Shown: positions 42,834 through 61,643 of the stretch, piece after piece
Numbering within the stretch: the first letter of the stretch is position 1
How the letters are laid out: the number at the start of each line of letters is the position of its first letter
Source of the DNA: Streptomyces sp. col6
Lineage (GTDB): Bacteria > Actinomycetota > Actinomycetes > Streptomycetales > Streptomycetaceae
NCBI RefSeq assembly: GCF_008042035.1
Contig: NZ_RDBL01000010.1
Location: 1-64,000 of the forward strand
DNA: 64,000 nucleotides
Direction: 5' to 3'
Translations under genes and position numbers: made by a program
Notes under the pieces: model-generated
Database searches by the model: none
What the model saw: the letters and a program-made list of their open reading frames with translations, nothing else
Told to the model about the DNA's origin: nothing

Positions 42834-43711
42834 GCCGCGTCGACCACCGGGACAGGTACCTGGAGCGCATCGCGGAGGTGCGGGCCGGCCGGCATGCCGA
42901 GAAGGTCGGCTACCCGATCGGCATCCGTGAGGTCGAGGTCGTGCGTACGGCCACGGTCGGCGCGGGTCTGCTGCGGGTCACCCTGGGCGGGCCCGGGGTC
43001 GAGGGATTCGAGGCGCACGCGCCCGACGAGCACGTGAAACTGATCTTCCGGGAGCAGGACGGCAGCCTGCGGCTGCCCGAGCGCAACGGGACGATGCTGC
43101 GCTGGCCGAGGCCGGTGCCCACCTCGCGCGAGTACACCGTGCGCCGCTACGACCCCGTCGCCGGCGAGATCGACATCGACGTCGCCGTGCACGAGGGCGG
43201 ACTCGCCTCGGACTGGGCCGGCAAGGCGCAGTCCGGCGACACGATCCATGTCGCCGGACCGCCCGGCGGGCTGATCGTCCCGCACACCTACGACCGCTAC
43301 CTGCTCGTCGGGGACCTCACCGCGCTGCCCGCCGTCGCGCGGTGGCTGGAGGAACTGCCCCGGACCGCCAGGGGCTGGGCGTTCATCGAAGTCACGGGCC
43401 CCGACGAGGAGATCGAGCTCTCCGCCCCCGAGGGCTTCGAGGTCCGCTGGCTGCACCGAGGCGACGCGCCCGCGGGATCCGGTGACGCGCTGGTCCGGGC
43501 CGCGACCTCGGTCACCGTTCCCGAGGGGGAGCGGGCGTACGTGTGGGTCGCGGGGGAGGCGGGGCAGATCAAGCCGTTGCGGCGCTGGGTCCGGGACGAA
43601 CTGCGCCTGGAGAAGGCCGATTACGACATCACCGGCTATTGGAAGCGGGGTGTCGCGGACTTCGACGAGGACGACCACGACCACGAGCCCGGTCACGACC
43701 ACGACCACTGA
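42830..43711 (+). CDS. Siderophore-interacting protein (ViuB-type ferric reductase) with His-rich tail
   Basis: A 293-aa SIP-family flavoprotein of the FNR fold, predicted to reduce imported ferric siderophore with NAD(P)H/FAD to release iron. VPTSREYTVRRYD is the FAD-binding RxYT-type motif, AVHEGGLASDWAGKAQSGDTIHVAGPPGG the following loop, and LLVGDLTALPAVARWLEELP and YVWVAGEAGQIKPLRRWVRDEL the NAD(P)H-side landmarks. The C-terminus after GYWKRGVADF is an unusual acidic/His tail, DEDDHDHEPGHDHDH, which could bind metal. ATG 42830 overlaps the carrier-protein stop. Confidence 0.9.
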   Translation: MSRVDHRDRYLERIAEVRAGRHAEKVGYPIGIREVEVVRTATVGAGLLRVTLGGPGVEGFEAHAPDEHVKLIFREQDGSLRLPERNGTMLRWPRPVPTSREYTVRRYDPVAGEIDIDVAVHEGGLASDWAGKAQSGDTIHVAGPPGGLIVPHTYDRYLLVGDLTALPAVARWLEELPRTARGWAFIEVTGPDEEIELSAPEGFEVRWLHRGDAPAGSGDALVRAATSVTVPEGERAYVWVAGEAGQIKPLRRWVRDELRLEKADYDITGYWKRGVADFDEDDHDHEPGHDHDH

Positions 43712-44805: not shown

Positions 44806-45827
44806 CCGTCGCGGGCCGCGCGTCCGAGGCCGCGGGAAAGAACCGGCGGGCCGTCCCGCAGACCGCCCTGCTCGTCGGCGGACTGATCCTGCTGGTCGTT
44901 CTCGCCGTACTCAGCATGGGCGTCGGGGCCCGCCACGTCGCCCCCGGCGAAGTCGTGCGCGCACTCTTCGACTACCAGGGGACCGACGACCACGTCGTCG
45001 TACGGGACGTGCGGGCACCGCGTGCGCTGCTCGCCGTCGCCGTCGGTGCCGCGCTCGCCGTCGCGGGCGCGCTCATCCAGACGCTCGCCCGCAACCCGCT
45101 GGCCGAGCCCGGCATCCTCGGGGTCACCGCGGGCGCCGGGTTCGCCGTCACCCTCGGGTCGGCGGCGGGCCTGGCCGGCGGCCAGGCCGGCGAACTCGGC
45201 TTCGCGGTCGTCGGATCCGTGGCCGCGGCGTTCCTGGTCGCCGCGGTCGGCCGCACCTCGCCGCTGCGCCTGGTCCTCACGGGCGTGGCGGTGACCGCGG
45301 TGCTCAACGGCGTCGCCCTCGGGCTGCGCCTCATGCTCCCGGACACCTTCGACCTCTACCGGTTCTGGTCGGTGGGGACACTGGCCGGGCGCGAACAGGC
45401 CGCCCTGTCCTGGCCGTTGACCGCCATCGCGGTGTCCCTGGCCGGTGCGCTGCTGCTGAGCCGGGCGCTCAACGCCCTGACACTCGGCGAGAACGTGGCG
45501 CACACCCTGGGCGCCAACGTGGGCCGGGTCCGCCTCACCACCCTCGTCCTCATCACCGTGCTCAGCGGCGCGGCGACGGCGGTGGCGGGCCCCATCCTGT
45601 TCGTCGGCCTGATCGTGCCCCACCTGGTGCGCAAACCGGCTTCCGGATCGGTGCCCTGGCTGATCGCCTACACCATGGTCCTCGGGCCCGTCCTGCTCCT
45701 CGCCGCCGACATGGCCGCGCGGGTCCTGCTGCCCACCGGTGAGGTGCCGGTGGCCATCGTGACCGCCTTCCTCGGCGGCCCCATGCTGATCTGGGCGGTC
45801 CGCCGCTACGGGGCGGGGTCCCTGTGA
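44802..45827 (+). CDS. FecCD-family siderophore permease (importer 2, first)
   Basis: A 341-aa ten-helix permease. VAGALIQTLARNPLAEPGILGVTAGAGFA is the FecCD signature and GENVAHTLGANVGRVRL the ATPase-contact loop. GTG 44802 lies in GTGA shared with the binding-protein stop, and its own stop overlaps the next permease in the same way. The run of 4-nt overlaps from 44802 to 46819 implies tightly coupled synthesis of the importer. Confidence 0.92.
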   Translation: MTVAGRASEAAGKNRRAVPQTALLVGGLILLVVLAVLSMGVGARHVAPGEVVRALFDYQGTDDHVVVRDVRAPRALLAVAVGAALAVAGALIQTLARNPLAEPGILGVTAGAGFAVTLGSAAGLAGGQAGELGFAVVGSVAAAFLVAAVGRTSPLRLVLTGVAVTAVLNGVALGLRLMLPDTFDLYRFWSVGTLAGREQAALSWPLTAIAVSLAGALLLSRALNALTLGENVAHTLGANVGRVRLTTLVLITVLSGAATAVAGPILFVGLIVPHLVRKPASGSVPWLIAYTMVLGPVLLLAADMAARVLLPTGEVPVAIVTAFLGGPMLIWAVRRYGAGSL

Positions 45828-46819
45828 ACGTGCTGAAATTCCACTTCGAACGGCGTACGGCGATACTCGTCGTCGTCCTGGTCGCCCTGATGCTGGGGCT
45901 CGGCCTGCTCGGGCTGTGCTACGGGGCGTCATGGGCCCCGCCCGGCAAGGTGTTCGCCGTCCTGACCGGCTCCGAGCACTCCGTGGTGATCCGGGACTGG
46001 CGTTTGCCGCGGGTGCTGGCCGGCCTGGTCTTCGGCGCCGCGCTCGGCGTCGCCGGCGCCATCTTCCAGAACCTCACCCGCAACCCCATGGGCAGCCCCG
46101 ACGTCATCGGGCTGGACGCCGGCGCCTACACCGGCGCGCTGGTCGCCCTGACCGTACTGTCGGGCACGTCCGCGCAGCTCGCCACCAGCTCCGTGATCGG
46201 CGGACTGGCCGTCGCGGCCGCCATCTACCTGCTGTCGCTCGAACACGGCTTCTCGGGCCTTCGGCTGGTCGTGATCGGTATCGCCATCAACGCGATGATG
46301 ACCGCGGTCAACTCGTGGATCGTGCTCCGCGCGGACCTGGAGGTGGCGATCGCCGCCGTCGGCTGGAGCGCGGGCTCGCTCAACGGCGTGGGCTGGGAGG
46401 ACCTCGGTATCCCCTTCACGGTGATCGCCGTCCTGCTGGCCCTGATGACCACCAAGGCCCACGCCATGCACCAGGCGTCGCTCGGTGACCCGATCGCCGT
46501 CACGACCGGCGTAGGACTCGACCGGCTGCGCCTGCTGATGGTCCTGGTCGGCGTCGGCTGCACCGCCACGGTGACCGCCGTGGCCGGGCCCATCGCGTTC
46601 ATCGCGCTGGCCGCCCCGCAGATCGGCCGCCGGCTCGCCGGCGCTGCCGGGATCCCGCTGCTCCCGGCAGCACTGACCGGGGCGGTGCTCCTCCAGGGCG
46701 CCGACCTGGTGGCCCAGATGCTGCTGGCGCCCGTCGCGCTGCCCGTGGGCGTCGTGAGCACCGCGATCGGCGGTTGCTACCTGATCTGGCTGCTGACCAA
46801 GGAGGTGAGGCGCGCGTGA
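45824..46819 (+). CDS. FecCD-family siderophore permease (importer 2, second)
   Basis: A 331-aa partner permease. GVAGAIFQNLTRNPMGSPDVIGLDAGAYTGA is the signature; GDPIAVTTGVGLDRLRLLM is the cytoplasmic loop. It starts at GTG 45824 and overlaps the ATPase start at 46816. Compared with the first permease it has the shorter N-terminus. Confidence 0.92.
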   Translation: MNVLKFHFERRTAILVVVLVALMLGLGLLGLCYGASWAPPGKVFAVLTGSEHSVVIRDWRLPRVLAGLVFGAALGVAGAIFQNLTRNPMGSPDVIGLDAGAYTGALVALTVLSGTSAQLATSSVIGGLAVAAAIYLLSLEHGFSGLRLVVIGIAINAMMTAVNSWIVLRADLEVAIAAVGWSAGSLNGVGWEDLGIPFTVIAVLLALMTTKAHAMHQASLGDPIAVTTGVGLDRLRLLMVLVGVGCTATVTAVAGPIAFIALAAPQIGRRLAGAAGIPLLPAALTGAVLLQGADLVAQMLLAPVALPVGVVSTAIGGCYLIWLLTKEVRRA

Positions 46820-47601
46820 CCGCACGCCTGACAGCGCGGGACATCACCCTGCGCTACGGAGACCGGGTCGTGTCCACGCGGCTGACCCTCGACATACCCG
46901 ACGGCGCGTTCACCGCCATCGTCGGCCCCAACGCCTGTGGCAAATCAACGCTGTTGAGCGCCCTGGTACGGCTGCTCAAGCCGCACTCCGGACACGTGGA
47001 GTTCGACGGGCGCGAGGTCGGCGCCTTCGGCACCAAGGCGCTGGCCAAACAGCTCGGGTTCCTGCCTCAGGACCCGATGGCGCCCGACGACATCAAGGTC
47101 CGCCAGCTGGTGGCCCGGGGACGCTTCCCGCACCAGTCGATGCTGGCCCTGTGGTCGCCCGAGGACCAGAAGGCCGTCGACGGGGCCATGGCCGCGGCCG
47201 GCGTCTCGGACCTCGTCGACCGGCCCGTACAGGAACTGTCCGGCGGACAGCGCCAGCGGGTCTGGATGGCCATGGTGCTCGCCCAGCAGACGCCCTATCT
47301 GCTGCTGGACGAACCCACGTCGTTCCTCGACATCACCCACCAGTACCAACTGCTCGGCCTGCTCGCCAGGCTGCGCAACGAGGGCCGCACCGTCGTCGCG
47401 GTCCTGCACGACATCAACCAGGCATGCCGGTTCGCCGACCACCTGGTGGCCATGAAGGCGGGTGCCGTGGTCGCCGAGGGCGACCCCGGGGACATCGTGG
47501 ACGCCACGCTGATCAAGGACGTGTTCGACCTTCCCAGCGTCGTCGTCCCGGACCCTGTGACCGGCACTCCGATGGTCGTTCCCACACTGCAAGGAGAGTA
47601 A
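46816..47601 (+). CDS. Iron-siderophore ABC ATPase (importer 2)
   Basis: A 261-aa FepC-type ATPase. Walker [12 protein letters not shown], signature [18 protein letters not shown], Walker B LLLDEPTSFLD, switch His in VLHDINQACRFADH. GTG 46816 overlaps the permease stop; the frame extends 14 codons upstream but without similarity. The NRPS start codon lies one base after its stop, so import and synthesis are encoded on one transcript. Confidence 0.93.
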   Translation: MTARLTARDITLRYGDRVVSTRLTLDIPDGAFTAIVGPNACGKSTLLSALVRLLKPHSGHVEFDGREVGAFGTKALAKQLGFLPQDPMAPDDIKVRQLVARGRFPHQSMLALWSPEDQKAVDGAMAAAGVSDLVDRPVQELSGGQRQRVWMAMVLAQQTPYLLLDEPTSFLDITHQYQLLGLLARLRNEGRTVVAVLHDINQACRFADHLVAMKAGAVVAEGDPGDIVDATLIKDVFDLPSVVVPDPVTGTPMVVPTLQGE

Positions 47602-47602
47602 G

Positions 47603-50600
47603 TTGACCACCGCGAGCGTGTCCCAGGACGGCCTCCTTCCCCTGACCGGCGCCCAACTGGGCATCTGGAACGCCCAGCGCATCGAACCCGACTCGCCGTA
47701 CTACGTCGTCGGCGACGTGATCGAGATATCCGGCGGCGAACCGGTCGACACGGACGCGCTCGCGCAGGCGGTCCGGGCCACCACCGAGGAGGCCGAGAGC
47801 CTGCGGCTCAGGGTGTACGAGACCCCCGAGGGCCCGCGCCAGGCGGTCGGTGACGAACCCGTCGCCCTGCCCCCGCTCGTCGACGTCAGCGCCGAGGCCG
47901 ACCCGGCTGCGGCGGCCCAGGCGCTCGTCGACGCCGAACGCGCACGCCTCGCCGAGGCCTGCCGCGGCATGACGGACCGCCCGCTGTACTCGCGTACCGT
48001 CATCAAGCTCTCCGACCACGAGGTCTGGTACACCCAGCTCGGCCACCACCTCGTCTTCGACGGCTACACCGCCGCCCAGCTCGCCCGGCGCACCGCGGCC
48101 CACTACACCGCCCTGGTGCGCGGCACCGAGCCGCCCCGCTCCACGTTCGGCGCGTTCGCGACGCTCGTCGCCGAGGACACCGCCTACCGCACGAGCGAAC
48201 AGGCCGCCGAGGACCGTGCGTACTGGGTCGAACGCTTCACCCCGCTGCCCGAGGTCGACGCCGAGGACGGCCCCGGCAGCGGCGGCGCCCCCGCCCGCAC
48301 GCTCACCGCGCGGGCCGCCCTCACCTCCGAGGAGACCGCCGCCCTGCGCGCCTTCGCCGATGCCGAGGGCGTCGCCTGGGGCCAGGCGCTCATCGCCTGC
48401 TACGCGGCGTTCCTGCACCGCATGCTGGGCCGCACCGACGTGGTCTTCGCGCTGCCCCTGATGTGCCGGACCGGCTCGGCCGCGCTGCGCACCCCCTCCA
48501 TGGCCGTCAACGTGCTGCCGATGCGGGTCACCGTGCGCGGCGGCGACCGGCTCGGCGAGCTGAGCCGCCAGGTCGCCACCGCCATGCGCGAGATGCGCGA
48601 CCACCAGCGCTACCGGGGCGAGGACCTGCCCCGCGACCTCGGCGTGCCCGGCGCCGGCGCGCTGCTGCACGGGCGCGGGATCAACCTCAAGGCGTTCGAC
48701 CTGACACTCGACTTCGCCGGGGCGGCCGGCGTCATGCGCAACGTCGCCGGCGGACCGCCCGAGGACATGGGCCTGAGCGTCCTGCCGACCCGCGACGGAG
48801 GGCTCCTGCTCGGCTTCGAGGTCGACGCCCGCGCCAAGGACCAGGCCGCCGTCGACAGCCTGATGAGCGGGCTGCGCGCCCTGCTGTCCGGGCTGATGGA
48901 GGGCCGGCCCGTCGGCCGGATCGCCCTCACCGCCGACGCCGGCGGACTGCTCGCCCAGTGGAGCCCGGCCGCCCTGCCCGGCACCCCCCTCGACGTACCC
49001 GCCGCGTTCGACGCGATGGCCGCCGCCGGACCCGATCGCACCGCCCTCGTCTGCGGCGGCGAACGGCTGACCGCCGCCGAACTCGCCGACCGGGTGCACC
49101 GGGTGGCCCGCGCCCTGCGCGCCCGGGGCATCGGCGCCGAGGACATCGTCGCGCTCGCCCTGCCGCGCTCGGCCGACGCCGTCGTCGCCCTGCTCGCGGT
49201 GCTCGACGCGGGCGCCGCGTTCCAGCCGCTCGACGCCGCGCACCCGCCCGAGCGGCTGCGCGAACTCATCGACGACACCCGCCCCGCCCTCGTCCTCACC
49301 GACGGCACGGTCGAAGGACTGCCCTGGAAGGCGCTCCTCGACGAGGCCGCCGGCCTGTCGGGCGCCCCCCTCACGGCCGCCGAACTCTCCCGGCCCCGCG
49401 ACCCCGGACACCTCGCCTACGTCATCCACACCTCCGGGTCGACCGGCCGGCCCAAGGGCGTACTCGGCCGCACCGGCGGCCTTGCCTCCCTGCTGCACCA
49501 CCAGCGCTCCACGGTCGTCGCGGAAGCCGAACGGGCCACCGGCCGACAGTTGCGCGCCGCGCACACCTACTCCTTCGCCTTCGACTCCGCCTTCGAACAC
49601 CTCGTCTGGCTGCTGTGCGGCCACGAACTGCACGTGTACGACGCCGACACCGCCCGCGACGCCGACGCCCTGCTCGCCGCGTACGCCCGCGACGGCATCG
49701 ACATCGTCGACACCACCCCCTCGATGGCCACCCCGCTCATCGACGCCGGGCTGCTCGACCTGCCCCCGGCGCTGCTGCTCCTGGGCGGCGAGGCCACTCC
49801 GTCCGCGCTGTGGCGCCGGGTCGCCGCGTCGGGTATCCCCGCGCGCAACATGTACGGGCCCACCGAGGCCACCGTGGACGCCACCACCGCGCGCATCGAC
49901 GACGGCGAACCGACCATCGGGAACCCCCTCGCCGGCACCCGGGTCTACGTCCTGGACAACGCCCTCCAGCCGGTCCCGTACGGCACGGCCGGCGAACTGT
50001 ACCTGGCCGGACCCCACCTGGCCCGCGGCTACCTCGGCCGGCCCGGGGCCACCGCCGAACGATTCGTCGCCGACCCGTTCGGCGCGCCCGGCGAGCGGAT
50101 GTACCGCACCGGCGACCTCGCCCGCTGGGTGCCCGGCCGGGGCCTGGAGTACGGCGGCCGGGGCGACGGACAGGTCAAGATCCGCGGCCACCGCGTGGAG
50201 ACCGGTGAGGTCGAGGAGGCGCTTGCCGCCCTGCCCGGCGTCACCGCGGCCGCCGCGCGGGTCCTCTCGTCCCGGCTTGTCGGCTACATCGTGTCCGCCT
50301 CCCTCACCGGCGACGAGGCACGCGCCCTGCTCGCCGAGCGGCTGCCCGAGCACATGGTCCCCGCCGCCGTCGTCGTGCTGAGCGGCCTGCCCGTCACCCC
50401 CAACGGCAAGCTCGACCGGGCCGCCCTGCCCGCCCCCGCCCTCGCCGGCGGCGGCCGGGAGCCGGGCACCGAACGCGAACGGCTGCTGTGCACCGTCCTC
50501 GCCGACGCGCTCGACATCGAACGGGTGAGCGTGGACGACGACTTCTTCGCCCTCGGCGGGGACAGCATCACCGCGATCACCGTCAGCAGCCGGCTCCGCG

Positions 50601-53600
50601 CCCTCGGCCTCGGGCTGCGCCCCAAGGATCTGCTGGCCCGCCGCACCTTCGCGGCGCTCGCCGCCTCCGCCGAACAGCTGGGGGAGACGGCCGGCCCGGC
50701 GGACGAGCCGGTCGGCCCGGTCCCGGCCCCGCCCATCGTGCGCGGCCTGCTCGACCCGCACCCCGACATCGACACGGTCGCCGGATACGCCCAGTGGACC
50801 GCCCTGCATGTCGACGCACTCACCCTCGACGAGCTGACCAGGGGCGTGCAGACCCTCATCGACCACCACGACGCCCTGCGGCTGCGCGTGGCCGACGGAC
50901 CGGAGATCCTGCCCCGGGGCACGGTCCGCGCCGCCGTCGAGGAGGTCACCGGCGACGAGGTGACCGCCCTGGCCGCACGGCTGGCCGGTGCACTCGACCC
51001 GCGCACCGGCGACCTGGTGCGCGCCGCCCTGCTGCGCACGGAGGAGGGCACGGCGGACCGGCTGGTCCTCGTCGTGCACCACCTCGCCATGGACGGCGTG
51101 TCCTGGCGCATCCTGCTCCCCGACCTCCACACCGCCTGCGCGGGGGGCACCCCCGAACCCGTCGGCACGTCCTGGCGGCGGCACGCCCAGGTCCTCGCCG
51201 AGCAGGGCAGCACCGGCGCCCGGCGCGGCGAACTCGACCACTGGCGTACGGCGTTGGGCGCATCGACCCGGCTGGGCGCCCGCCCGCTGGACCCCGTACG
51301 CGACACCGTGGCCACCGCCCACCGCTCGGTCACGACCGCCTCGCCCGAGGCGACCGAGGCCCTGCTGACCACGCTGCCCGCCGCCTACCGGGCGGGCGTC
51401 GACGAGGTCCTGCTCGCCGCCCTCGCCCTCGCCCTGCGCGGCTGGGGGCTGCGCGGCGACGCCCTCACCGTCACCATGGAGGGCCACGGCCGCGAACATC
51501 TCGACCTGGCACGCACGGTCGGCTGGTTCACCAGTGAGTACCCCGTCCGCGTGCCCGCCTCCGACGACGTCCGTGAGACGCTGCGCGCCGCCAAGGAGGC
51601 CCGCCGCGCCGTCCCCGACGGCGGCGTCGGCTACGGAGTGCTGCGCCACCTCGACCACGAGGCAGCGGCGGAACTCGGCGCCGTCCCGCCGCCCGACGTA
51701 CTGCTCAACTACCTGGGCCGGTTCGCCCCGTTGACCGCCGACGGCTGGCGGCTGCCCGACCACGACGCCTTCTCGGTCACCGAGCCCGGCGCCAAGGCCC
51801 TGGAACAGGTGCTGGCCCTCAACTGCTTCGTCCACGAGGGCCACGAACCCCGGCTCGCCGTCGAGTGGACCGCCGCCGGCGAGGTCCTGGGCACCGACGC
51901 CCTGGCCGCCCTCCAGGACGCCTGGGCCTCCGCGCTGGACGCGCTGGCCGCGCACGCCCTGCACACCACCGGCGGGCTCACCCCCTCCGACCTGCCGCTG
52001 GTCGCACTCGGCCAGGACGCCATCGACGCCCTGGAGCGCACCGGCCGGGTCAGCGACGTGCTGCCCGCCACCCCGCTCCAGGTCGGCCTCTCCTTCCACA
52101 CCCTGGTCCGGGACGACGCGGACGCCGACGTCTACGTCGTCCAGGCCGTGACCAGCCTGTCCGGGGAGCTGGAACCCGCACGGATGGAACGCGCCGCCCG
52201 CGAACTGCTGCGCCGCCACCCCGCCCTCCGCGTCCACCTGGGCACGGCCGGGGACGACGTGGTGCAGGTGATCCCCGCCGACGTCACCCTGGACTGGCGG
52301 GAGGACGACGACTTCACCGAGGCGGCCCGCGTCGACCTGGAGCGCCCCTTCGACCCGGCCCGGCCGCCGCTCATCCGCTTCCTGCTCTCGCGCGTCGGGC
52401 CCGGCGAGCACAAGCTCGTCATCACCAACCACCACGCCCTGCTCGACGGCTGGTCCATGCCGATCGTCGGCCGCACCCTGCTCGCTATCTACGCCGAACT
52501 CGGCGGCGGTCCGGCGGCCCCCGTCTCGCCACCGCTGTCGGAGTACTTCCGCTGGCTGGCCGGCCGGGACGAGGAGGCGTCGCTCACCGCGTGGCGCGAG
52601 GCGCTCGCGGGCGTCGACGACGCGACCCGGCTCGCGCCCGCGAGCACCGGCACCGCCGTCGAGCGGCCGGGCCGGGAGACCGTCGCCCTGAGCCGCGAGT
52701 TCAGCGACCGGCTGCGCGCCTTCGCCCGCGAACAGGGCATCACCCTGACCACGGTCCTCCAGACCGCGTGGGGCCTGCTGCTCGGCAGGCTCACCGGCCG
52801 CCACGACGTCGTGTTCGGCTGCCCGGTCTCCGGCCGGCCCGCCGAGGTCGACGGCGTCGAGTCGATGATCGGCCAGCTCGGCACCACGATCCCGGTCCGC
52901 GTCCGGTACACCCGGGACCGCACGGTGACCGACCTCATGGCGCAGGTGCACGCGGAGAGCGTCGCCCTGGCCGAGCACCACCACGTCGGACTGCCCGGCA
53001 TCCAGCGGGCCGTGGGCATCGGTGAACTCTTCGACACCATGCTCGTCATGGAGAACTTCCCGCTCTCCAGCCGCACCCGCACCCCCCTCGCCCCGGGGCT
53101 CGACCTCACCGGCGTGGACATCACCGACGCCACCCACTACGCCCTCACCGTCATCGTGATCCCCGGCGACGAGATCACCATCGGCCTCGGCTACCAGCCC
53201 GGCGCCTTCGACGCGGACACCGTGCGCGACTACGGCCGCTGGCTGCACCACCTGCTGCGCGAGATCACCGAGGACCCGGCCCGGCCCGCGCTCGTGCTGC
53301 CCGCCCTCGACGCCGGCGAGCGCGCGCGCATGCTGCGCACCGGCACCGAGATCGTCGCGGCGAAGGAACGCGGCCACTGGCTGGAGGAGTTCGCCGCCTG
53401 GGTCCGGCGCAAGCCCGGCGCCGAGGCACTGGTCTGCCGCGACCGCAGCCTGTCGTACGACGAACTCGACCGGCAGGCCAACCGGCTCGCCCACGCTCTG
53501 ATCGCCCAGGGCGTCCGGCCGCAGGACCCGGTCGCGGTCCTCATCGGCCGGGACATCGAGATGACCGTCGCCCTGTTCGGCGTGGCCAAGGCGGGCGCGG

Positions 53601-56600
53601 TGTACGTGCCGATGGACGCGAGCTACCCCCGTGAACGGCTCGCGTTCATGTTCGACGACATCTCCCCGGCCGCCGTCGTGACGACCGGCGCCGAACTGCC
53701 CGTCGACCGCGACGTCCCCGTCCTGCGCCTCGACGACCCGGCCACCCTCGCCTCCGTACCCGACACCGACCCGGCTGACGCGCGCGCCCGGCTCACCGAC
53801 GACGCCCTCGCGTACGTCATCTACACCTCGGGCACCACCGGCCGCCCCAAGGGCGTCGGCGTCACCCACCGGGGCGTGCCCGACCTGATCGCCCTCCAGG
53901 AGGAGGTCGTCGGCGTCAGCGAGCACGACCGCTATCTGCACTTCGCGTCGACCAGCTTCGACGTGGCGTTCTGGCAGACCATGGTGCCGCTGCTGTCCGG
54001 CGGTACGTCGGTGATCGCGCCCGAGGAGGTGCGCGTACCCGGCGACGAACTCCTCGACTACATCGTGGAACACCGCGTCACCGGCGTGAACCTGCTCCCC
54101 TCGTTCCTCGCCGCGATGCCCGACGACCGCACCGTCGACTCCGACGTGTTCTTCGTCGTCGGCGCCGAACGGCTCGACCCGGAGCTGGCCCACCGCTGGG
54201 GCCGGGGGCGCCGGGCGCTGTTCAACGCCTACGGGCCCACCGAGGTCACCATCAACTCCACCACCTGGCACTACGACCCGGACGACGAGGGACCGCTGCC
54301 CCTCGGCCGCCCCGACCCCAACGTCCGCGCCTATGTGCTCGACGGCGGACTCCAGCCCGTGGGCGTCGGCGTCACCGGCGAGCTGTACCTCGGCGGCCCG
54401 AGCCTGGCCCGCGGCTACCTCGGCCGCCCCGGGCTGACCTCCGGCGCGTTTGTCGCCGACCCGTTCGGCCCGCCCGGCACCCGCATGTACCGCACCGGCG
54501 ACCTGGTGCGCTGGCGCCACGACGGGCAGCTGGTGTTCCTCGGCCGCGCCGACCACCAGATCAAGGTGCGCGGCTTCCGCGTCGAGCTGGGCGAGATCGA
54601 GACCGCCCTCACCGGCCACCCCGACGTCCGCGCCAGTGCCGTCGTGATGCGCGAGGGCCGGCTCGTCGGCTACGTCATCCCGACCGACGACGCCGACCTG
54701 GACACCGCCGCGGTGCGCGCGTACCTCGCCGAGTCGCTGCCCGACCACATGGTGCCGACCGCGCTCGTCCCGCTCGACCGCCTGCCGCTGAGCCCCAGCG
54801 GCAAGCTCGACGCCTCGGCGCTGCCCGCCCCGGCCACCGTGTCCGCCGCGCGCCGCGAACCGGCCACCGAGGCGGAGGCGCTGCTGCTCGCCGTGTTCCG
54901 GGACGTCCTCGGCCGCGACGACATCGGCCCCGACGACAACTTCTTCGACATCGGCGGCGACAGCATCGTCTCCCTCCAGCTGGTCTCCCGGGTCCGCCGC
55001 CAGGGGCTCGGGCTCAGCCCGAAGGACGTGTTCGACGGCGAGACCGTCGCGGGCATCGCCGCCCGTGCCCGCGCCCTGGAGGGCGAGGCCGCACCGGCCG
55101 TCGGCGACGCCCCGCTGACCCCGGTCATGCGCGACCTGCTGCACCGCGCCGGGAAGGCCGCCGACGGCTTCTGCCAGTGGGTGGAGGTCTGCGTACCGGC
55201 CGGCGGCGACGAGAAGACCTGGACGGCCGTGCTCGACGCCCTGCTGGCCCGGCACGACGTGCTGCGTGCCCGCCTCGGCGACGACGTGCTGCACATCCCG
55301 CCGGCCGGCGAGGTGACCGGTGCCGACGTCCTGACCCGCGTCCCGGCGGACGGCGACCCGCGCGCCGCCGCCGACGCCGCGACCGCAGCCGCTCGCGCGG
55401 CCATGGACCCGCGCACCGGACCGATGCTGCGCGCGGTCTGGGTGGACGCGGGCCGCGACCGGCCCGGCCGGCTCGTCCTGATCGCCCACCACCTGGTGGC
55501 CGACGGGGTGTCCTGGCGCATCCTCCTCGACGACCTCCGGCACGCCCACGACGGCGGAGAGCTGATCCGGCACGGGCAGTCCTTCCTCGGCTGGGCCCGC
55601 ACCCTGCGCGACGCCGACCGGCGCCCCGAACTCCCGCACTGGCGGCGGATGACCGCGACCGAGCCCCTCGCTCAGCCGCTCGACCCCGCCCGGGACACCG
55701 TGGCCACCGCGGCGCACCACGAGATCCGGCTCGACGCGGACGCCACCCGCGCCCTGATCACCACCCTGCCCGCCGCCCACCGCACCACACCGGACGCCGT
55801 GCTTCTGACGGCGCTCGCCCAGGCGGTACGCGACTGGCGGGGCATCCCGGAACTCCTGGTCGCGCTGGAGAGCCACGGCCGCCCGCGCGAGGTCGACCTC
55901 TCGCAGACCGTCGGCTGGTTCACGGCCATCCACCCGGTCCGGCTCGACGCCGCCGACGACGTGCGGGCGGTCCGGGAACGGCTGCGCGCCCAGGGCGACG
56001 GCCTCGGCCACGGCATCCTCACCACGGCCGGCCTGACCGACCCGGTCCGCCCGGAGGTCGCCTGGAACTACCTCGGCCAGTACCCCGGCGCCCCGGAGAC
56101 GGAGACGCCCTGGCAGCCGGCCCCGGACGCCGACCCGCTCGGCTCCGACGGTTCCGGCCCGATGCCCCTCCCGTACAGCCTCATGGTCAACGCCCTGGTG
56201 CGTGACGACGCGCTCGGGGTGCGGATCACCTGGCCGGAAGCGCTGTTCAGCGGCGCGGAGATCGAGGAGCTGGGCCGGCACCTGAGGGCCGCGCTGCTGC
56301 GGGTCGCCGCCGCGCCGGAGATCAGCGCGCTCGGGGACCAGCCGGTCGCCGCCGTGCAGCCGCTCAGCCCCTTGCAGGAAGTGATGCTGCGGCACGCGCG
56401 GACCGAGCGCCCCGACCCGTACACCGTGCAGTCGGTGTTCTCGCTCGCCGGCCCGCTCGACACCGGGGCGCTGCGCGGCGCGGGCGACGACCTGCTGGCC
56501 CGGCACCCCAACATGGGCGCCGTGTTCCCCGCCTCGCTGGGGGTCATTCCGGAATCGCCCCGGCCGGAGTTCCGCGTCACCGACACGCCGGCCGACGACG

Positions 56601-57571
56601 TGCTCGCCGCCGACCTCGCCGAACCGTTCGACCTGGCCCGCGGCCCGCTCTACCGGATCACCGTGATCCAGCTCGGGCCCGAGCGCGCCGACCTCGTCCT
56701 GACCAGCCACCACGCGCTCTCCGACGGCTGGTCGGCCCCGCGCATCCTCGGCGAGCTCTTCGCCCTGTACACCGCGCGCACCGAGCACCGCGCGCACGGC
56801 CTGCCGGACCCCGTCCCGTTCTCGGACTACCTCACCTGGTGCGCGGAGCACGAACCGGACCTCGACGCGTGGGCGGCCGAACTCGACGGACTGCCCGAGG
56901 GCGACTACCTGGGCGGCGGCGAGAGCGGCCCGGCCTGGCAGGAGCCCGAGGTCATCACGTTCGACGCGGCGCTCGTGGACGGGCTCACCCGGCTCGCCGC
57001 CCGGCGCGGCCTGACCCCCAACACCCTGGTCCAGGGCGCCTGGTCGGTGCTGCTGGCCCGTCGCTCCGGCCACCGGGACGTCTGCTTCGGCGCCATGGTC
57101 TCCAGCCGTCCCCCGGAGCTGGAGGGCGTCGAGGAGATCATCGGCCTGCTCGCCAACACCGTGCCGGTACGGGCGAGGCTCACCGGCACCCTGGCCGACG
57201 CGCTGACCGGCCTCCAGGCCCGCCAGCGCGACCTGGTCGAACACCACCATGTGGCCCTGGCCGACCTGGAACGGATCACCGGGCGGCGCCGGCTGTTCGA
57301 CAGCATGGTGGTGTTCGAGAACTACCCGGTCGACCCGGACCGCCTGCGCGAACCCGCTCCCGGGCTCACAGTGCTGGGCACGCGCTTCAGGGAGTCCACC
57401 CACCACCCCGCCACTCTCACCGTCATGCCCGACGGCGACGGCTGGACCGGCGTGCTCGCGCACCGGGCCGGCACGGACACCGAGGGGCTCGCCGGCCAAC
57501 TGGTCGAGCTGCTGCAGACCATGGAACAGCACCTCGACGCGGACGTGCGCGGCCTTCTGGAGGACCGATGA
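47603..57571 (+). CDS. Siderophore NRPS, C-A-T-E-C-A-T-E-C
   Basis: A 3,322-aa non-ribosomal peptide synthetase from TTG 47603 (AAGGAGA five bases upstream). Domains by motif: C1 (HHLVFDG at 148-154), A1 (HTSGSTGRPKG at 609), T1 (LGGDSI, Ser988), E1 (HHLAMDG at 1159, with EGHGRE and NYLGRF), C2 (HHALLDG at 1610), A2 (YTSGTTGRPKG at 2074), T2 (IGGDSI, Ser2454), E2 (HHLVADG at 2629, with ESHGRP and WNYLGQY), C3 (HHALSDG at 3036) to the end. C1 should take an aryl group from the separate carrier protein; two residues are added and both epimerised to D. By motif alignment the A1 pocket has two acidic residues (basic substrate, perhaps Arg) and the A2 pocket ends V-G-A-I-N, resembling N-hydroxyornithine-type codes; both are tentative. 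There is no thioesterase or reductase; a condensation domain ends the protein. Confidence 0.95.
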   Translation: MTTASVSQDGLLPLTGAQLGIWNAQRIEPDSPYYVVGDVIEISGGEPVDTDALAQAVRATTEEAESLRLRVYETPEGPRQAVGDEPVALPPLVDVSAEADPAAAAQALVDAERARLAEACRGMTDRPLYSRTVIKLSDHEVWYTQLGHHLVFDGYTAAQLARRTAAHYTALVRGTEPPRSTFGAFATLVAEDTAYRTSEQAAEDRAYWVERFTPLPEVDAEDGPGSGGAPARTLTARAALTSEETAALRAFADAEGVAWGQALIACYAAFLHRMLGRTDVVFALPLMCRTGSAALRTPSMAVNVLPMRVTVRGGDRLGELSRQVATAMREMRDHQRYRGEDLPRDLGVPGAGALLHGRGINLKAFDLTLDFAGAAGVMRNVAGGPPEDMGLSVLPTRDGGLLLGFEVDARAKDQAAVDSLMSGLRALLSGLMEGRPVGRIALTADAGGLLAQWSPAALPGTPLDVPAAFDAMAAAGPDRTALVCGGERLTAAELADRVHRVARALRARGIGAEDIVALALPRSADAVVALLAVLDAGAAFQPLDAAHPPERLRELIDDTRPALVLTDGTVEGLPWKALLDEAAGLSGAPLTAAELSRPRDPGHLAYVIHTSGSTGRPKGVLGRTGGLASLLHHQRSTVVAEAERATGRQLRAAHTYSFAFDSAFEHLVWLLCGHELHVYDADTARDADALLAAYARDGIDIVDTTPSMATPLIDAGLLDLPPALLLLGGEATPSALWRRVAASGIPARNMYGPTEATVDATTARIDDGEPTIGNPLAGTRVYVLDNALQPVPYGTAGELYLAGPHLARGYLGRPGATAERFVADPFGAPGERMYRTGDLARWVPGRGLEYGGRGDGQVKIRGHRVETGEVEEALAALPGVTAAAARVLSSRLVGYIVSASLTGDEARALLAERLPEHMVPAAVVVLSGLPVTPNGKLDRAALPAPALAGGGREPGTERERLLCTVLADALDIERVSVDDDFFALGGDSITAITVSSRLRALGLGLRPKDLLARRTFAALAASAEQLGETAGPADEPVGPVPAPPIVRGLLDPHPDIDTVAGYAQWTALHVDALTLDELTRGVQTLIDHHDALRLRVADGPEILPRGTVRAAVEEVTGDEVTALAARLAGALDPRTGDLVRAALLRTEEGTADRLVLVVHHLAMDGVSWRILLPDLHTACAGGTPEPVGTSWRRHAQVLAEQGSTGARRGELDHWRTALGASTRLGARPLDPVRDTVATAHRSVTTASPEATEALLTTLPAAYRAGVDEVLLAALALALRGWGLRGDALTVTMEGHGREHLDLARTVGWFTSEYPVRVPASDDVRETLRAAKEARRAVPDGGVGYGVLRHLDHEAAAELGAVPPPDVLLNYLGRFAPLTADGWRLPDHDAFSVTEPGAKALEQVLALNCFVHEGHEPRLAVEWTAAGEVLGTDALAALQDAWASALDALAAHALHTTGGLTPSDLPLVALGQDAIDALERTGRVSDVLPATPLQVGLSFHTLVRDDADADVYVVQAVTSLSGELEPARMERAARELLRRHPALRVHLGTAGDDVVQVIPADVTLDWREDDDFTEAARVDLERPFDPARPPLIRFLLSRVGPGEHKLVITNHHALLDGWSMPIVGRTLLAIYAELGGGPAAPVSPPLSEYFRWLAGRDEEASLTAWREALAGVDDATRLAPASTGTAVERPGRETVALSREFSDRLRAFAREQGITLTTVLQTAWGLLLGRLTGRHDVVFGCPVSGRPAEVDGVESMIGQLGTTIPVRVRYTRDRTVTDLMAQVHAESVALAEHHHVGLPGIQRAVGIGELFDTMLVMENFPLSSRTRTPLAPGLDLTGVDITDATHYALTVIVIPGDEITIGLGYQPGAFDADTVRDYGRWLHHLLREITEDPARPALVLPALDAGERARMLRTGTEIVAAKERGHWLEEFAAWVRRKPGAEALVCRDRSLSYDELDRQANRLAHALIAQGVRPQDPVAVLIGRDIEMTVALFGVAKAGAVYVPMDASYPRERLAFMFDDISPAAVVTTGAELPVDRDVPVLRLDDPATLASVPDTDPADARARLTDDALAYVIYTSGTTGRPKGVGVTHRGVPDLIALQEEVVGVSEHDRYLHFASTSFDVAFWQTMVPLLSGGTSVIAPEEVRVPGDELLDYIVEHRVTGVNLLPSFLAAMPDDRTVDSDVFFVVGAERLDPELAHRWGRGRRALFNAYGPTEVTINSTTWHYDPDDEGPLPLGRPDPNVRAYVLDGGLQPVGVGVTGELYLGGPSLARGYLGRPGLTSGAFVADPFGPPGTRMYRTGDLVRWRHDGQLVFLGRADHQIKVRGFRVELGEIETALTGHPDVRASAVVMREGRLVGYVIPTDDADLDTAAVRAYLAESLPDHMVPTALVPLDRLPLSPSGKLDASALPAPATVSAARREPATEAEALLLAVFRDVLGRDDIGPDDNFFDIGGDSIVSLQLVSRVRRQGLGLSPKDVFDGETVAGIAARARALEGEAAPAVGDAPLTPVMRDLLHRAGKAADGFCQWVEVCVPAGGDEKTWTAVLDALLARHDVLRARLGDDVLHIPPAGEVTGADVLTRVPADGDPRAAADAATAAARAAMDPRTGPMLRAVWVDAGRDRPGRLVLIAHHLVADGVSWRILLDDLRHAHDGGELIRHGQSFLGWARTLRDADRRPELPHWRRMTATEPLAQPLDPARDTVATAAHHEIRLDADATRALITTLPAAHRTTPDAVLLTALAQAVRDWRGIPELLVALESHGRPREVDLSQTVGWFTAIHPVRLDAADDVRAVRERLRAQGDGLGHGILTTAGLTDPVRPEVAWNYLGQYPGAPETETPWQPAPDADPLGSDGSGPMPLPYSLMVNALVRDDALGVRITWPEALFSGAEIEELGRHLRAALLRVAAAPEISALGDQPVAAVQPLSPLQEVMLRHARTERPDPYTVQSVFSLAGPLDTGALRGAGDDLLARHPNMGAVFPASLGVIPESPRPEFRVTDTPADDVLAADLAEPFDLARGPLYRITVIQLGPERADLVLTSHHALSDGWSAPRILGELFALYTARTEHRAHGLPDPVPFSDYLTWCAEHEPDLDAWAAELDGLPEGDYLGGGESGPAWQEPEVITFDAALVDGLTRLAARRGLTPNTLVQGAWSVLLARRSGHRDVCFGAMVSSRPPELEGVEEIIGLLANTVPVRARLTGTLADALTGLQARQRDLVEHHHVALADLERITGRRRLFDSMVVFENYPVDPDRLREPAPGLTVLGTRFRESTHHPATLTVMPDGDGWTGVLAHRAGTDTEGLAGQLVELLQTMEQHLDADVRGLLEDR

Positions 57572-58971
57572 GCGGGCAGAAGACCGCACCACCCGCCGAT
57601 CGTGTGGACGGAGAACTGCTGCGGATCGCGTTCATCCTGGTCCTCGGCACGTTCATGGCCTCGCTGGACGCCACCATCGTCAGCGTCGGACTCGACCGCC
57701 TCACCGAGGAGTTCGACGCCTCGGTCGCCGAGATCCAGTGGGTCTCCACCGCGTACCTGCTGGCGATCGTCGCCGCCGTCCCCGCGTCCGGCTGGCTGGC
57801 CGGCCGGTTCGGCGGCCGGCGGACCTGGATCGCGGCCGTGGGCCTGTTCCTGCTCGGTTCGCTGCTGTGCGCCTCGGCCTGGTCGGCGACCAGCCTCATC
57901 GTGTTCCGCGTGATCCAGGGCCTCGGCGGCGGACTGCTGCCCGCGACCGGGCAGGCGTTGCTGGCCCGGGTCGCGGGCCCCGGCCGCACCGGCAAGGTGA
58001 TCAGTGTCGTCGCCGTGGTCCCGCTGCTCTCACCGGTGTTCGGGCCGCTGGCCGGGGGCTCGGTGCTCGCCGTGGCGTCCTGGCCCTGGCTGTTCCTGAT
58101 CAACCTGCCGATCGGCATCGCGGCGGTGCTGCTGGCCCGCCGCTATGTCCCGGTGGTGCCGCCGGCGTCGCAGCGCACGGCCTTCGACCTTCGCGGGGCC
58201 CTGCTCCTGTCACCCGGCCTGGCGATGCTGGTGTACGGGCTGACCGAGGTCGCCCACCACCGCACGCTGCCGGCCACGGCCGGGGTGTCGGCCGGGGTCG
58301 TGATGCTCGCCGCCTTCACCGTGCACGGGCTGCGGACACGGAGCACCCCGCTCGTCGACCCCCGGCTGTTCGCCCGGCCGCCCTTCGGCGCCGCCGCCCT
58401 CGCGCTGTTGGTGCTCGGGGCCTCGGTGTTCGGCACGATGTTCCTGCTGCCGCTCTACTTCCAGTCGGGCCGGTCCATGTCGGCGTGGGAGGCCGGGCTG
58501 ATGCTCGCCCCCCAGGGGCTGGGCGCGGCGGCGGGGTCGGTGCTCGTCAACCGGACGATCAGCAAGGTCGCCCCGAGGACCCTGGTGGTGGCCGGCATCG
58601 TGCTGATCCTCGCCGGGACGGCACCGTTCACCTTGCTCGGCCACGGCGTCCCGGACGCGGTGATCGTCGCGGCCCTGGTGGTCCGGGGCTTCGGGATGTC
58701 GATGATCGGCGCGCCGGTGATGAACATCGTCTACAGCCGGATCGAGCCGGAACAGCTGCCCCGGGCGGCCGGAGCGCTCAACCTGCTGAACACCGTGGGC
58801 GGTTCGGTCGGCACCGCGGCCCTGGCCGTGATCCTGCAGACCCGGCTCGCCGCCCGGGGCACGGACATCTCCGCGGCTTTCGGCGACACCTTCTGGTGGG
58901 TCCTGGGCTTCTGCCTGTTCGCCGCGGCGGCGGCGACGCGGCTTCCCCGTACCCAGCCGAAGACGGCATAG
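57568..58971 (+). CDS. MFS siderophore exporter (DHA2, 14-helix type)
   Basis: A 467-aa major-facilitator drug:H+ antiporter. FMASLDATIVSVGLDRL is the DHA2 motif near helix 1, GWLAGRFGGRRTW motif A, and GGGLLPATGQALL follows. About 12-14 membrane helices are predicted. ATG 57568 overlaps the NRPS stop (ATGA), so it is translationally coupled and most likely exports the finished siderophore across the membrane. It is the last gene of the long plus-strand operon before two strong hairpins. Confidence 0.9.
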   Translation: MSGQKTAPPADRVDGELLRIAFILVLGTFMASLDATIVSVGLDRLTEEFDASVAEIQWVSTAYLLAIVAAVPASGWLAGRFGGRRTWIAAVGLFLLGSLLCASAWSATSLIVFRVIQGLGGGLLPATGQALLARVAGPGRTGKVISVVAVVPLLSPVFGPLAGGSVLAVASWPWLFLINLPIGIAAVLLARRYVPVVPPASQRTAFDLRGALLLSPGLAMLVYGLTEVAHHRTLPATAGVSAGVVMLAAFTVHGLRTRSTPLVDPRLFARPPFGAAALALLVLGASVFGTMFLLPLYFQSGRSMSAWEAGLMLAPQGLGAAAGSVLVNRTISKVAPRTLVVAGIVLILAGTAPFTLLGHGVPDAVIVAALVVRGFGMSMIGAPVMNIVYSRIEPEQLPRAAGALNLLNTVGGSVGTAALAVILQTRLAARGTDISAAFGDTFWWVLGFCLFAAAAATRLPRTQPKTA

Positions 58972-59082: not shown

Positions 59083-60030
59083 TCAGGGACGGCTGGTCAG
59101 GTAACCGCCCATGGAGGTGAAGTACTCCGTCGCGGGCAGCTCGCGGCCGTCCTCGGTACGGACCCGGGTGATGGCCAGGCCGTGGTTGCGGCCGGTGCGG
59201 GCGTCGGCGCCGGCGACGATCACCACACCCTCGCCCTCGCGGTAGAAGATCCGGCCGGGCGTCCCGCCGTAGCGGCCCTCGGACACCACGGCGGCGACCA
59301 CCTCGATGCGCTTGCCGCGGTGGAAGGCGTAGGCGCTCGGGTACGGGGCCGACTGGGCGCGTACCAGGCGTTCCAGGTCCTCGGCAGGCCAGTTCCAGTC
59401 GATCCGGATGTCCTCCTCGGACCGCTTGTGGAAGAAGGTGGCCTGCGAGCGGTCCTGCGGGGTGAACTCGGTCTGCCCGTCCGCGATCAGCGCGAGCGCC
59501 TTCGTGGTGACGGGGGCGATGAGGTCGACGGTCTTGTGGAACAGGTCGGTGGCGGTGTCCTTCGGGCCGACCGGGACGGACTCCTGCCGGACGATGTCGC
59601 CGGCGTCGAGCTCGTCGTTCATCATGTGCGCGGTGACGCCGACTTCGGTCTCACCGTTGATGAGCGCCCAGATCAGCGGCGAGAAGCCCGCGTACTTCGG
59701 CAGCAGCGAGTCGTGCACGTTCAGGGTGCCCCGGCGCGGGAGCGCGAAGATCCGCGGCGGAATCCAGGTGCGCCAGTTGTTGGCGACGATGACGTCGGCG
59801 TCGGCGGCCTTGAGGCGCTCGTACAGCTCGTCGTCGTCGGGCCGGTTGCGGATGAGGACCGGGACGCCGTGCTCCTCGGCGAGATCGGCGACGGAGTCGC
59901 TCCAGATCTTCTCGTACGCGTGCTCGCTCCTGGGATGCGTCACGACCAGCACCACGTCGTGCTCGGAGTCCAGGAGGGCTTGCAGGGTGCGGTGCCCCCA
60001 GGTCTGGTAACCGAACATGACGACCCGCAT
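59083..60030 (-). CDS. N5-hydroxyornithine formyltransferase (CchA-like)
   Basis: A 315-aa formyl-transferase-fold enzyme related to methionyl-tRNA formyltransferase. The catalytic Asn-His-Asp set is present in VIVANNWRTWIP, GTLNVHDSLLPKYAGFSPLIWALINGE (HxSLLPK) and MNDELDAGDIV. A C-terminal FMT-like domain follows. In siderophore clusters such enzymes (CchA of coelichelin) formylate N5-hydroxyornithine using N10-formyltetrahydrofolate. ATG 60030 has GAGGAGG six bases before it; a frame 15 codons longer overlaps the iron-box region. It is divergent from the ornithine monooxygenase gene, with an iron box on its side. Confidence 0.92.
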   Translation of the reverse strand: MRVVMFGYQTWGHRTLQALLDSEHDVVLVVTHPRSEHAYEKIWSDSVADLAEEHGVPVLIRNRPDDDELYERLKAADADVIVANNWRTWIPPRIFALPRRGTLNVHDSLLPKYAGFSPLIWALINGETEVGVTAHMMNDELDAGDIVRQESVPVGPKDTATDLFHKTVDLIAPVTTKALALIADGQTEFTPQDRSQATFFHKRSEEDIRIDWNWPAEDLERLVRAQSAPYPSAYAFHRGKRIEVVAAVVSEGRYGGTPGRIFYREGEGVVIVAGADARTGRNHGLAITRVRTEDGRELPATEYFTSMGGYLTSRP

Positions 60031-60067
60031 GGGGTTCCTCCTCAAACCGAAAACAGAGCGGCCCCAG

Positions 60068-60086
60068 TAAAGCAAGGCTTACCTTA
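60068..60086 (-). promoter_or_regulatory. Iron box before formyltransferase
   Basis: TAAAGCAAGGCTTACCTTA (plus strand) is a moderately conserved iron box, 37 bases upstream of the formyltransferase start. Confidence 0.75.
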
Positions 60087-60171
60087 TCTCGCAACGCGCT
60101 CGCGGAGTGCCGCAGTTGGAGCGCCCTGCCCGGGGGCTGTCCGGATCGCGCCGGTCGACAGCGCCGGAGGA

Positions 60172-60190
60172 TTAGCTTAGGCTCACCTAA
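60172..60190 (+). promoter_or_regulatory. Iron box before ornithine monooxygenase
   Basis: TTAGCTTAGGCTCACCTAA differs from the iron-box consensus at few positions. It lies 84 bases before the monooxygenase start. Confidence 0.88.
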
Positions 60191-60274
60191 GTTATCGGGT
60201 CGCTCCGTCTGCGTGCCCGTATGACGCCCCTTCCCCACATCCGACAGGCGGCTTCCCCGCACGATGGGAGTGAC

Positions 60275-61630
60275 ATGTCACAGGCTCGTCCTGGCGACGC
60301 ACCACCGGTCCACGACCTCATAGGCATCGGCTTCGGGCCGTCCAACGTGGCCATGGCCATCGCGATCAGTGAGCACAACGCGCGCTCCGGGACGCAGGAA
60401 GCGGTGACCGCACGGTTCTTCGAGCAGCAACCGCGCTTCGGCTGGCACCGGGGCATGCTGATCGACGACGCCACCATGCAGGTGTCCTTCCTGAAGGACC
60501 TGGTGACACTCAGGAATCCGGCCAGTGAGTTCAGCTTCCTCTGCTACCTGAAGAGCAAGGGACGCCTGATCGACTTCATCAATCACAAGAACCTCTTCCC
60601 GCTGCGGGTGGAGTTCCACGAGTACTTCGAGTGGGCCGCCGCCCAGGTCGCCGACCTGGTCTCCTACGACCACGAGGTGGTCGGCGTCACCCAGGTCGTC
60701 CGGGACGGCACCGTCGAGTTCCTGGACGTCACTGTCCGGTCGGGGGAGGGGCTCACGGTCCACCGCGCCCGCAACCTCGTCATCGGCACCGGACTGCGCC
60801 CGCTCGTGCCCGAGGGCGTCGAGCGTGGCGACCGCGTCTGGCACAACTCCGAACTGCTGACCCGGGTCGGCGAGCTGGACGGCACCTCGCCCACCCGCTT
60901 CGTCGTCGTGGGCGCCGGCCAGAGCGCCGCCGAGAACGTCGCCTATCTCCACCGCCGCTTCCCCGGCGCCGAGATCTGCGCGGTCTTCTCCCGCTACGGC
61001 TACAGCCCCGCCGACGACAGCAGCTTCGCCAACAAGATCTTCGACCCGGACGCGGTCGACGAGTTCTACGCGGCGCCCGAGAGCGTCAAGCGCCGGCTGA
61101 TGGACTACCACGGCAACACCAACTACTCGGTCGTCGACATCGACCTGATCGACGACCTGTACCGGCAGATGTACCAGGAGAAGGTCCTCGGCACCGAGCG
61201 GCTGCGCTTCCTCAACGTGTCCCGGCTCACCGAGGTCAAGGAGACGCAGGACAAGGTACGCGCCACCGTCACGTCCCTCGTCACCGGCGAGGAGACCCTG
61301 CTCGACGCCGACGTCGTGGTGTTCGCCACCGGCTACAGCCCCGCCGACCCCCTGGGCCTCCTGGGCGAGGCGGCCGAGCTGTGCCTGCGCGACGAGGAGG
61401 GCCGGGTCCGCGTCGAGCGGGACTACCGCATCGCCGCGGACACCGCGCTCAACTGCGGCATCTACCTCCAGGGCGGTACGGAGCACACCCACGGCATCAC
61501 CTCGGCCCTGCTGTCCAACACCGCGATCAGGGTCGGCGAGATCCTGGACTCGCTGCTGGACCGGAGCGTCAAGTCCGCCCCCGACGCCGCCCGTCCGGTC
61601 ATCGACAAGAGTGGCGGCACCGCCCGCTAG
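60275..61630 (+). CDS. L-ornithine N5-monooxygenase
   Basis: A 451-aa class B flavin N-hydroxylating monooxygenase (SidA/PvdA/CchB family). The FAD site is GIGFGPSNVAMAIAI, the substrate loop is MQVSFLKDLVTLRNPASEFSFLCYLK, NADPH binds at VVVGAGQSAAENVAYL, and the C-terminal ATGYSP and GIYLQGGTEHTHGITSALLSNTA are family landmarks. It should make N5-hydroxyornithine, which the divergent formyltransferase then formylates to supply the NRPS. ATG 60275 has GGAG four bases upstream; an ATG 18 codons earlier lacks similarity. An iron box precedes it. Confidence 0.94.
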   Translation: MSQARPGDAPPVHDLIGIGFGPSNVAMAIAISEHNARSGTQEAVTARFFEQQPRFGWHRGMLIDDATMQVSFLKDLVTLRNPASEFSFLCYLKSKGRLIDFINHKNLFPLRVEFHEYFEWAAAQVADLVSYDHEVVGVTQVVRDGTVEFLDVTVRSGEGLTVHRARNLVIGTGLRPLVPEGVERGDRVWHNSELLTRVGELDGTSPTRFVVVGAGQSAAENVAYLHRRFPGAEICAVFSRYGYSPADDSSFANKIFDPDAVDEFYAAPESVKRRLMDYHGNTNYSVVDIDLIDDLYRQMYQEKVLGTERLRFLNVSRLTEVKETQDKVRATVTSLVTGEETLLDADVVVFATGYSPADPLGLLGEAAELCLRDEEGRVRVERDYRIAADTALNCGIYLQGGTEHTHGITSALLSNTAIRVGEILDSLLDRSVKSAPDAARPVIDKSGGTAR

Positions 61631-61643
61631 GACGGCCGGTCGC

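Follow-up and report, generated by a model that had tools for sequence, protein, structure and literature searches.

Genes and domains at the locus

We examined a 64,000-nucleotide window of Streptomyces sp. col6 (contig NZ_RDBL01000010.1, positions 1 to 64,000) in which an NRPS gene lies among genes for siderophore precursor supply, uptake and export. The features of this region are as follows, with the basis of each assignment in brackets.

40811–42007, minus strand: isochorismate synthase, DhbC (NF005380 DhbC, 506 bits, cut-off 486)
42594–42833, plus strand: free-standing aryl carrier protein (PF00550)
42830–43711, plus strand: siderophore-interacting protein, ferric reductase (PF04954/PF08021)
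43807–44805, plus strand: siderophore-binding protein (PF01497)
44802–46819, plus strand: two FecCD permeases, 44802–45827 and 45824–46819 (PF01032)
46774–47601, plus strand: siderophore ABC ATPase (PF00005)
47603–57571, plus strand: NRPS, C1-A1-T1-E1-C2-A2-T2-E2-C3 (Pfam, domain HMM), comprising the next ten entries
47627–48955, plus strand: C1, aryl-starter type, clustering with EntF (trees)
49016–50428, plus strand: A1, predicted acidic code DSEDLGMVDK, Arg expected (code, positions 299/301 read by hand)
50453–50647, plus strand: T1 (FFALGGDS motif; second PF00550 stretch)
50720–52039, plus strand: E1 (domain HMM, tree)
52052–53329, plus strand: C2, DCL type, acceptor-side residues kept (tree, residue comparison)
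53390–54826, plus strand: A2, predicted code DVWNVGAINK (positions 299/301 read by hand)
54881–55066, plus strand: T2 (PF00550, residues 2427–2488)
55103–56329, plus strand: E2 (domain HMM, tree)
56351–57556, plus strand: C3, terminal DCL-derived condensation domain (trees, residue comparison, conservation)
56381–56404, plus strand: C3 helix 1, with V2927, R2930, R2933 and T2934 at the acceptor channel and docking patch, where DCL domains have Gly/Phe/Leu/Val (alignment, literature mapping)
57568–58971, plus strand: MFS exporter, its ATG overlapping the NRPS stop (PF07690)
59083–60075, minus strand: formyltransferase, cchA-like (PF00551/PF02911)
60221–61630, plus strand: ornithine N5-monooxygenase, cchB-like (PF13434)

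The NRPS is a single open frame of 3322 amino acids with 95% G+C at third positions, and this frame carries all of the domains. Pfam recognised five condensation-type stretches, two AMP-binding and two PP-binding domains, and the domain HMM placed C1 at residues 9–451, E1 at 1040–1479, C2 at 1484–1909, E2 at 2501–2909 and C3 at 2917–3318, after which the protein stops. Both methods agree with a preliminary description of this DNA, which had read the order C-A-T-E-C-A-T-E-C with a terminal C domain instead of a release domain. All five HHxxxDG motifs and both T serine motifs are intact, and the C3 motif HHALSDGWS, previously placed near residue 3036, begins at that residue. The earlier statement that no T, TE or reductase follows the second epimerisation also held, as Pfam and the domain HMM found none after C3 and no PF00975 thioesterase was matched on the 132-kb contig of the NRPS. 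No carrier motif turned up in a six-frame pattern search of the stretch from C3 to the formyltransferase gene. Sixteen thioesterase matches above the Pfam cut-off lie elsewhere in the genome, on other contigs. A 3359-residue antisense open frame spanning the whole NRPS (47513–57592, minus strand) gave no Pfam match, and we set it aside as a high-GC artefact.

The preliminary description had named A-domain prediction and a phylogeny of C3 as ways to check its reading, and we carried out both. Positions 299 and 301 of the A1 and A2 codes were read by hand on the GGE/GAE motif, and this reading was checked on the known Ser, Thr and fhOrn codes. The codes obtained are those listed above, and the A1 code is acidic in every orthologue in which it could be read.

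Relation to known mirubactin-type systems

The cluster holds the genes expected of a mirubactin-type siderophore pathway, namely an aryl-starter C domain, an A1 predicted from its code to take a basic residue, two E domains, and supplies of 2,3-dihydroxybenzoate (DHB) and N5-hydroxy-formyl-ornithine. Part of the DHB supply sits on another contig, where a second DHB operon (L105, L106 / G000:C18:51143–53428) contains an isochorismate synthase paralogue (69% identical), an isochorismatase and a DHB-type ligase that is 59% identical to the ligase of a Tamaricihabitans cluster. A tblastn search matched the aryl carrier protein in 10 of the 11 upstream regions taken from other genomes, and the best NCBIfam matches of the ABC ATPase are FecE and iron-enterobactin ATPase, both under their cut-offs.

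Directly downstream (59083–64000, and L003/L004) is a cluster that starts with the formyltransferase and ornithine monooxygenase genes and also contains permeases, an ATPase, a binding protein, exporters, a three-A-domain NRPS, an esterase (PF00756) and an MbtH protein. We call it coelichelin-like from its gene content and gene order, and the cch names and order applied to it are our assumption. Judging from their position, the formyltransferase and the ornithine hydroxylase probably feed both siderophores.

Families found in at least three of 12 neighbourhoods, the window included, were identified from Pfam matches or from homology to genes of the window. They cover DHB synthesis, uptake, NRPS, MFS, hydroxylase, formyltransferase and DAHP synthase, plus antisense frames; neither a thioesterase nor an acyltransferase was recognised among them. 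A DAHP synthase gene lies beside the cluster in four genomes (L049:12725–13780, L048, L019 and L089) and perhaps feeds chorismate supply. Just outside the window's cluster is a PF01553 acyltransferase gene (39969–40664) that is absent from the families common to the other neighbourhoods examined.

We take the second aryl group of mirubactin A to be on the guanidine, in line with the chlorocatechelin title and with a mirubactin C that is without one DHB and the guanidine. In Streptomyces drozdowiczii MDA8-470, a mirubactin-like cluster borders the coelichelin cluster, the DHB genes lie about 130 kb away, and the strain makes mirubactin A at m/z 605.2, or 658.1 with Fe (PMC9609785). The col6 locus shares this border and the placement of DHB genes elsewhere in the genome, as well as two D-residues in the product, predicted here from the two E domains. 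Because its gene content and the adjacent coelichelin-like cluster match the S. drozdowiczii locus, we assign the cluster to the mirubactin type on sequence grounds and expect a siderophore of known kind. The earlier guess of a mirubactin/chlorocatechelin product fits this gene content and synteny. A linear free acid of two DHB, Arg and formyl-hydroxy-Orn has a calculated value of 605.22, or 658.13 with Fe, so the ions reported for mirubactin A correspond to the linear free acid; neither a putrescine amide (675.3) nor a cyclised form fits. The col6 cluster differs from the S. drozdowiczii and Actinosynnema mirum mirubactin systems in having an isochorismate synthase inside it. The A. mirum cluster, compared here by description alone, is given as C-A-PCP-E, C-A-PCP-E, E, A and KR, with no terminal C domain (PMC9120177). 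The extra E of that description may be a C3 read as an E domain.

Conservation, placement and acceptor side of C3

A scan with C3 gave 186 relatives, of which the best 80 were taken, in 79 loci. Fifty-four of these (L005–L058) are 53–94% identical to C3, and the remaining 25 are at most 43% identical. The hosts of the 54 loci are Streptomyces, Actinacidiphila, Actinomadura, Saccharothrix (63–64% identity in C3), Tamaricihabitans, Saccharopolyspora, Pilimelia, Pseudonocardia and one unclassified actinomycete. Within this set of 54, drawn from the best 80 of 186 relatives, every locus keeps HHxxxDG in C3, ends its frame 401–518 residues past the start of the C3 match, and has an MFS match starting at most 0.7 kb downstream of the NRPS. 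As the same NRPS end recurs in all 54 of these loci, truncation or sequencing error at this end is very unlikely. The retention of HHxxxDG indicates that C3 is probably active, as the preliminary description had supposed from the window's motif. C3 was found in 16 of 392 sampled genomes of the window's genus, its own counted, and C1 at 74% identity or more in 15 of the 392, all within those 16; the starter and terminal C domains therefore travel together. In the sixteenth genome the frame is shorter, probably because the contig breaks off within it.

We placed C3 in two trees, whose context labels were assigned from spacing alone, so that some rows labelled as following a T domain landed among E or DCL domains. 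In a FastTree of 232 domains, with 15 orthologues including the window, C1 grouped with EntF (support 1.0), whereas C2 joined C3 (0.90) inside a clade made up of C domains located after E domains (1.0). In a maximum-likelihood tree of 46 rows, with 5 orthologues, SH-aLRT support was 97 for C3 with C2 and DCL domains, 86 for C2 with C3 and 100 for C1 with EntF. Forcing C3 into the aryl-starter clade made the tree 22 log-likelihood units worse (p-AU 0.055), a placement that is disfavoured but falls short of formal rejection. In the best trees, C3 sits where DCL domains do, among C domains located after E domains, at this p-AU for the aryl-starter alternative. Streptomyces violaceorubidus has another, distinct aryl-starter NRPS (L059:6635–11344), the frame of which reaches the record end; its second C domain falls near C2 and C3 with a support of 0.14. 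The AlphaFold model of C3 (pLDDT 87) gave matches, among the best 50 listed, from Z 38.5 (SrfA-C, 8f7h; rmsd 3.0, 398 aligned) down to 32.9. We rejected the fold as a class discriminator, these 50 including starter, heterocyclisation, X and CT domains.

For the acceptor side, we took SrfA-C F24, L28 and Y337 as acceptor-side positions, their numbering agreeing with that in the literature. A study of FscG reports that R2577 gates the acceptor channel and equates it with G21 of AB3403; at this position, DCL domains have Gly in 80% and Ala in 4% (PMC8097023). The same text has W2579, L2580 and V2584 touching the acceptor carrier, at an interface likened to that of SrfA-C (PMC8097023). Taking AB3403 G21 as SrfA-C position 21, an offset derived in the present analysis, puts the carrier contacts at positions 23, 24 and 28.

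Residues were counted in 52 of 55 C3 rows (54 loci plus the window), with L041, L044 and L055 left out for split or single domain hits, and in 51 of 55 C2 rows, with L037, L041, L044 and L055 left out. The C3 of L041, read separately, has V at 21 and R at 24, in agreement with the others. At channel position 21, C3 has V (46/52) or L (6/52), where Gly is found in all 51 C2 and all 43 reference DCL domains. At position 24, the docking Phe (SrfA-C F24, FscG L2580), C3 has R in 51 rows and Q in one, where every C2 (51/51) and reference DCL domain (43/43) has F, L or Y. Position 27 is R in 51 of the 52 where C2 and DCL domains mostly have L, and position 28 is T in 41 and A in 6 where they mostly have V or L. 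C3 is thus like DCL domains in clustering with them and keeping HHxxxDG, and unlike them in that the channel Gly and docking Phe are replaced in 52 of 52 rows. It has neither the channel Gly and hydrophobic docking patch nor the downstream A-T that mark a DCL domain with a carrier-bound acceptor, and it has lost features needed for such an acceptor.

Position 24 alone is not decisive, because C1, despite having to serve a T-bound acceptor, also has no hydrophobic residue there (N or H in 15/15). E domains, which have no carrier-bound acceptor either, show no hydrophobic consensus at this position. We let the acceptor-side argument rest on the combination of residues and on comparison inside the DCL clade, and we count the C3 substitutions as a single change passed on by descent, not as 52 separate changes. 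Two further changes lie outside this patch. The Arg of the RHxxLR motif (residue 2972, nucleotide 56516), near-universal in reference C and E domains, is G or A in 51 of 52 C3, a replacement that could weaken catalysis. R3047 (nucleotide 56741), six residues past the catalytic Asp and after HHxxxDGWSAP, has been gained and is invariant in all 52.

Candidate functions of the terminal domain

The analysis shows the order of genes and domains, their conservation, where C3 sits in the best trees and the substitution of its acceptor residues; the substrates, product and hydrolytic reaction of this assembly line are inferred as follows. C1 would use DHB delivered by the free-standing aryl carrier protein to acylate the arginine that A1 loads onto T1, E1 would invert the T1-bound residue, C2 would join the T1 product to N5-formyl-N5-hydroxyornithine on T2, and E2 would invert the T2-bound residue. 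C3, as a DCL-type domain placed behind an E domain, would be suited to a D-peptidyl thioester from T2, which it would hold at its donor site. With the carrier-docking acceptor side lost, water would serve as acceptor, and C3 would stand in for a thioesterase and select the D-epimer. C1 is tentatively taken to act again, placing the second aryl group on the guanidine. The preliminary description required an amine, a hydroxyl, an aryl group or a side chain as acceptor; water replaces these as the simplest candidate, because there is no place for an acceptor carrier, the acceptor residues are lost and the masses are those of a free acid. On balance, we lean towards C3 taking the D-peptide from T2 and releasing it to water, as described for IvoA.

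C3 has a terminal position, an intact HHxxxDG and a protein without a TE domain, features of hydrolytic terminal C domains, of which hydrolysis itself is here a prediction. Accounts of IvoA (A-T-E-C, Aspergillus nidulans) describe hydrolysis of a D-aminoacyl thioester, the residue being Tyr in one account (PMC11546977) and Trp in another (PMC12751119). C3 would resemble it in following an E domain at the end of the line and in freeing a D-acid; IvoA is a fungal CT-type single module, whereas C3 derives from DCL domains and belongs to a bacterial siderophore assembly line. IvoA is the closest working model for the proposed reaction. Release by a hydrolytic terminal C domain has been called rare, with crocacin cited as a case (PMC12751119); the crocacin C-like release domain, known here through that citation, would share with C3 the freeing of an acid by a C-like domain in a bacterium. 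The predicted C3 reaction also resembles that of the terminal C domains of glidonin and malleobactin, where the last step likewise uses a soluble acceptor, in those cases putrescine rather than the water proposed here (PMC10587159).

Hydrolysis by C3 has against it that guanidine aroylation is left without a dedicated domain, so that C1 would act twice or another enzyme would aroylate. An unlikely but substantial alternative is that C3 is itself the guanidine aroyltransferase, moving DHB from the aryl carrier to the Arg guanidine of the T2-bound or released peptide, with release by another enzyme or spontaneous. The number of C domains, three, would then equal that of the acyl bonds in mirubactin A, two of them aryl and one peptide. 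The acidic A1 code of every readable orthologue favours this function, as does the lack of a recognised acyltransferase among the families common to at least three of 12 neighbourhoods, the PF01553 gene of the window being unshared. However, the best trees give a DCL rather than an aryl-starter type (p-AU 0.055), the lost docking residues disfavour a T2-bound acceptor, and peptide release is left unexplained.

We regard it as quite improbable that C3 is a remnant, either non-catalytic or gatekeeping, and that a thioesterase or esterase frees the peptide in trans. The change of the motif Arg to Gly or Ala in 51 of 52 C3 is consistent with a remnant, as is a mean pairwise identity of 0.665, slightly the lowest of the five C and E domains (others 0.668–0.732). 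This value is about equal to that of E2 (0.668), however, and HHxxxDG is kept in all 54 loci from the best 80 of 186 relatives. Candidate enzymes in trans are the 16 thioesterase matches elsewhere in the genome and the PF00756 esterase of the adjacent coelichelin-like cluster; against them, no thioesterase was recognised among the families common to at least three of 12 neighbourhoods, and 12 of the 17 genomes that have the NRPS are without a homologue of the coelichelin-type esterase, with a marginal 62-residue match in one more. We rejected a CchJ-type esterase as a general release enzyme on this count. Coupling of the peptide to a soluble amine such as putrescine, which the lost carrier docking would suit and for which glidonin C13 and, as proposed, the malleobactin terminal C domain are precedents (PMC10587159), is highly improbable given that the reported mass of mirubactin A is that of the free acid and not the 675.3 of a putrescine amide.

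Though the siderophore type is already known and release by a terminal C domain is of a known but rare kind, it is possible, at a little short of even confidence, that C3 represents a distinct and widespread bacterial C subtype, marked by V or L at 21 and R at 24. Such a domain would be of the DCL kind, its acceptor side narrowed and no longer docking a carrier, and would either release the peptide by stereoselective hydrolysis or, as the alternative, aroylate the guanidine. We found no earlier description of a conserved DCL-derived terminal C domain with a dismantled acceptor side in the literature searched, which lay mostly outside the subscription literature and the original mirubactin report. 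Some siderophore and peptide assembly lines have no visible release domain, and a signature for C domains that work without an acceptor carrier would make endings of this kind recognisable in DNA sequence. If it is a hydrolase, C3 would offer a compact D-selective release part. Which enzyme forms the acylguanidine and which releases mirubactin become directly testable questions. As a test of the role of C3, variation of the A domains among orthologues was set aside, the A1 codes being too uniform; the A2 code differs most in four loci, L051–L053 and L058.
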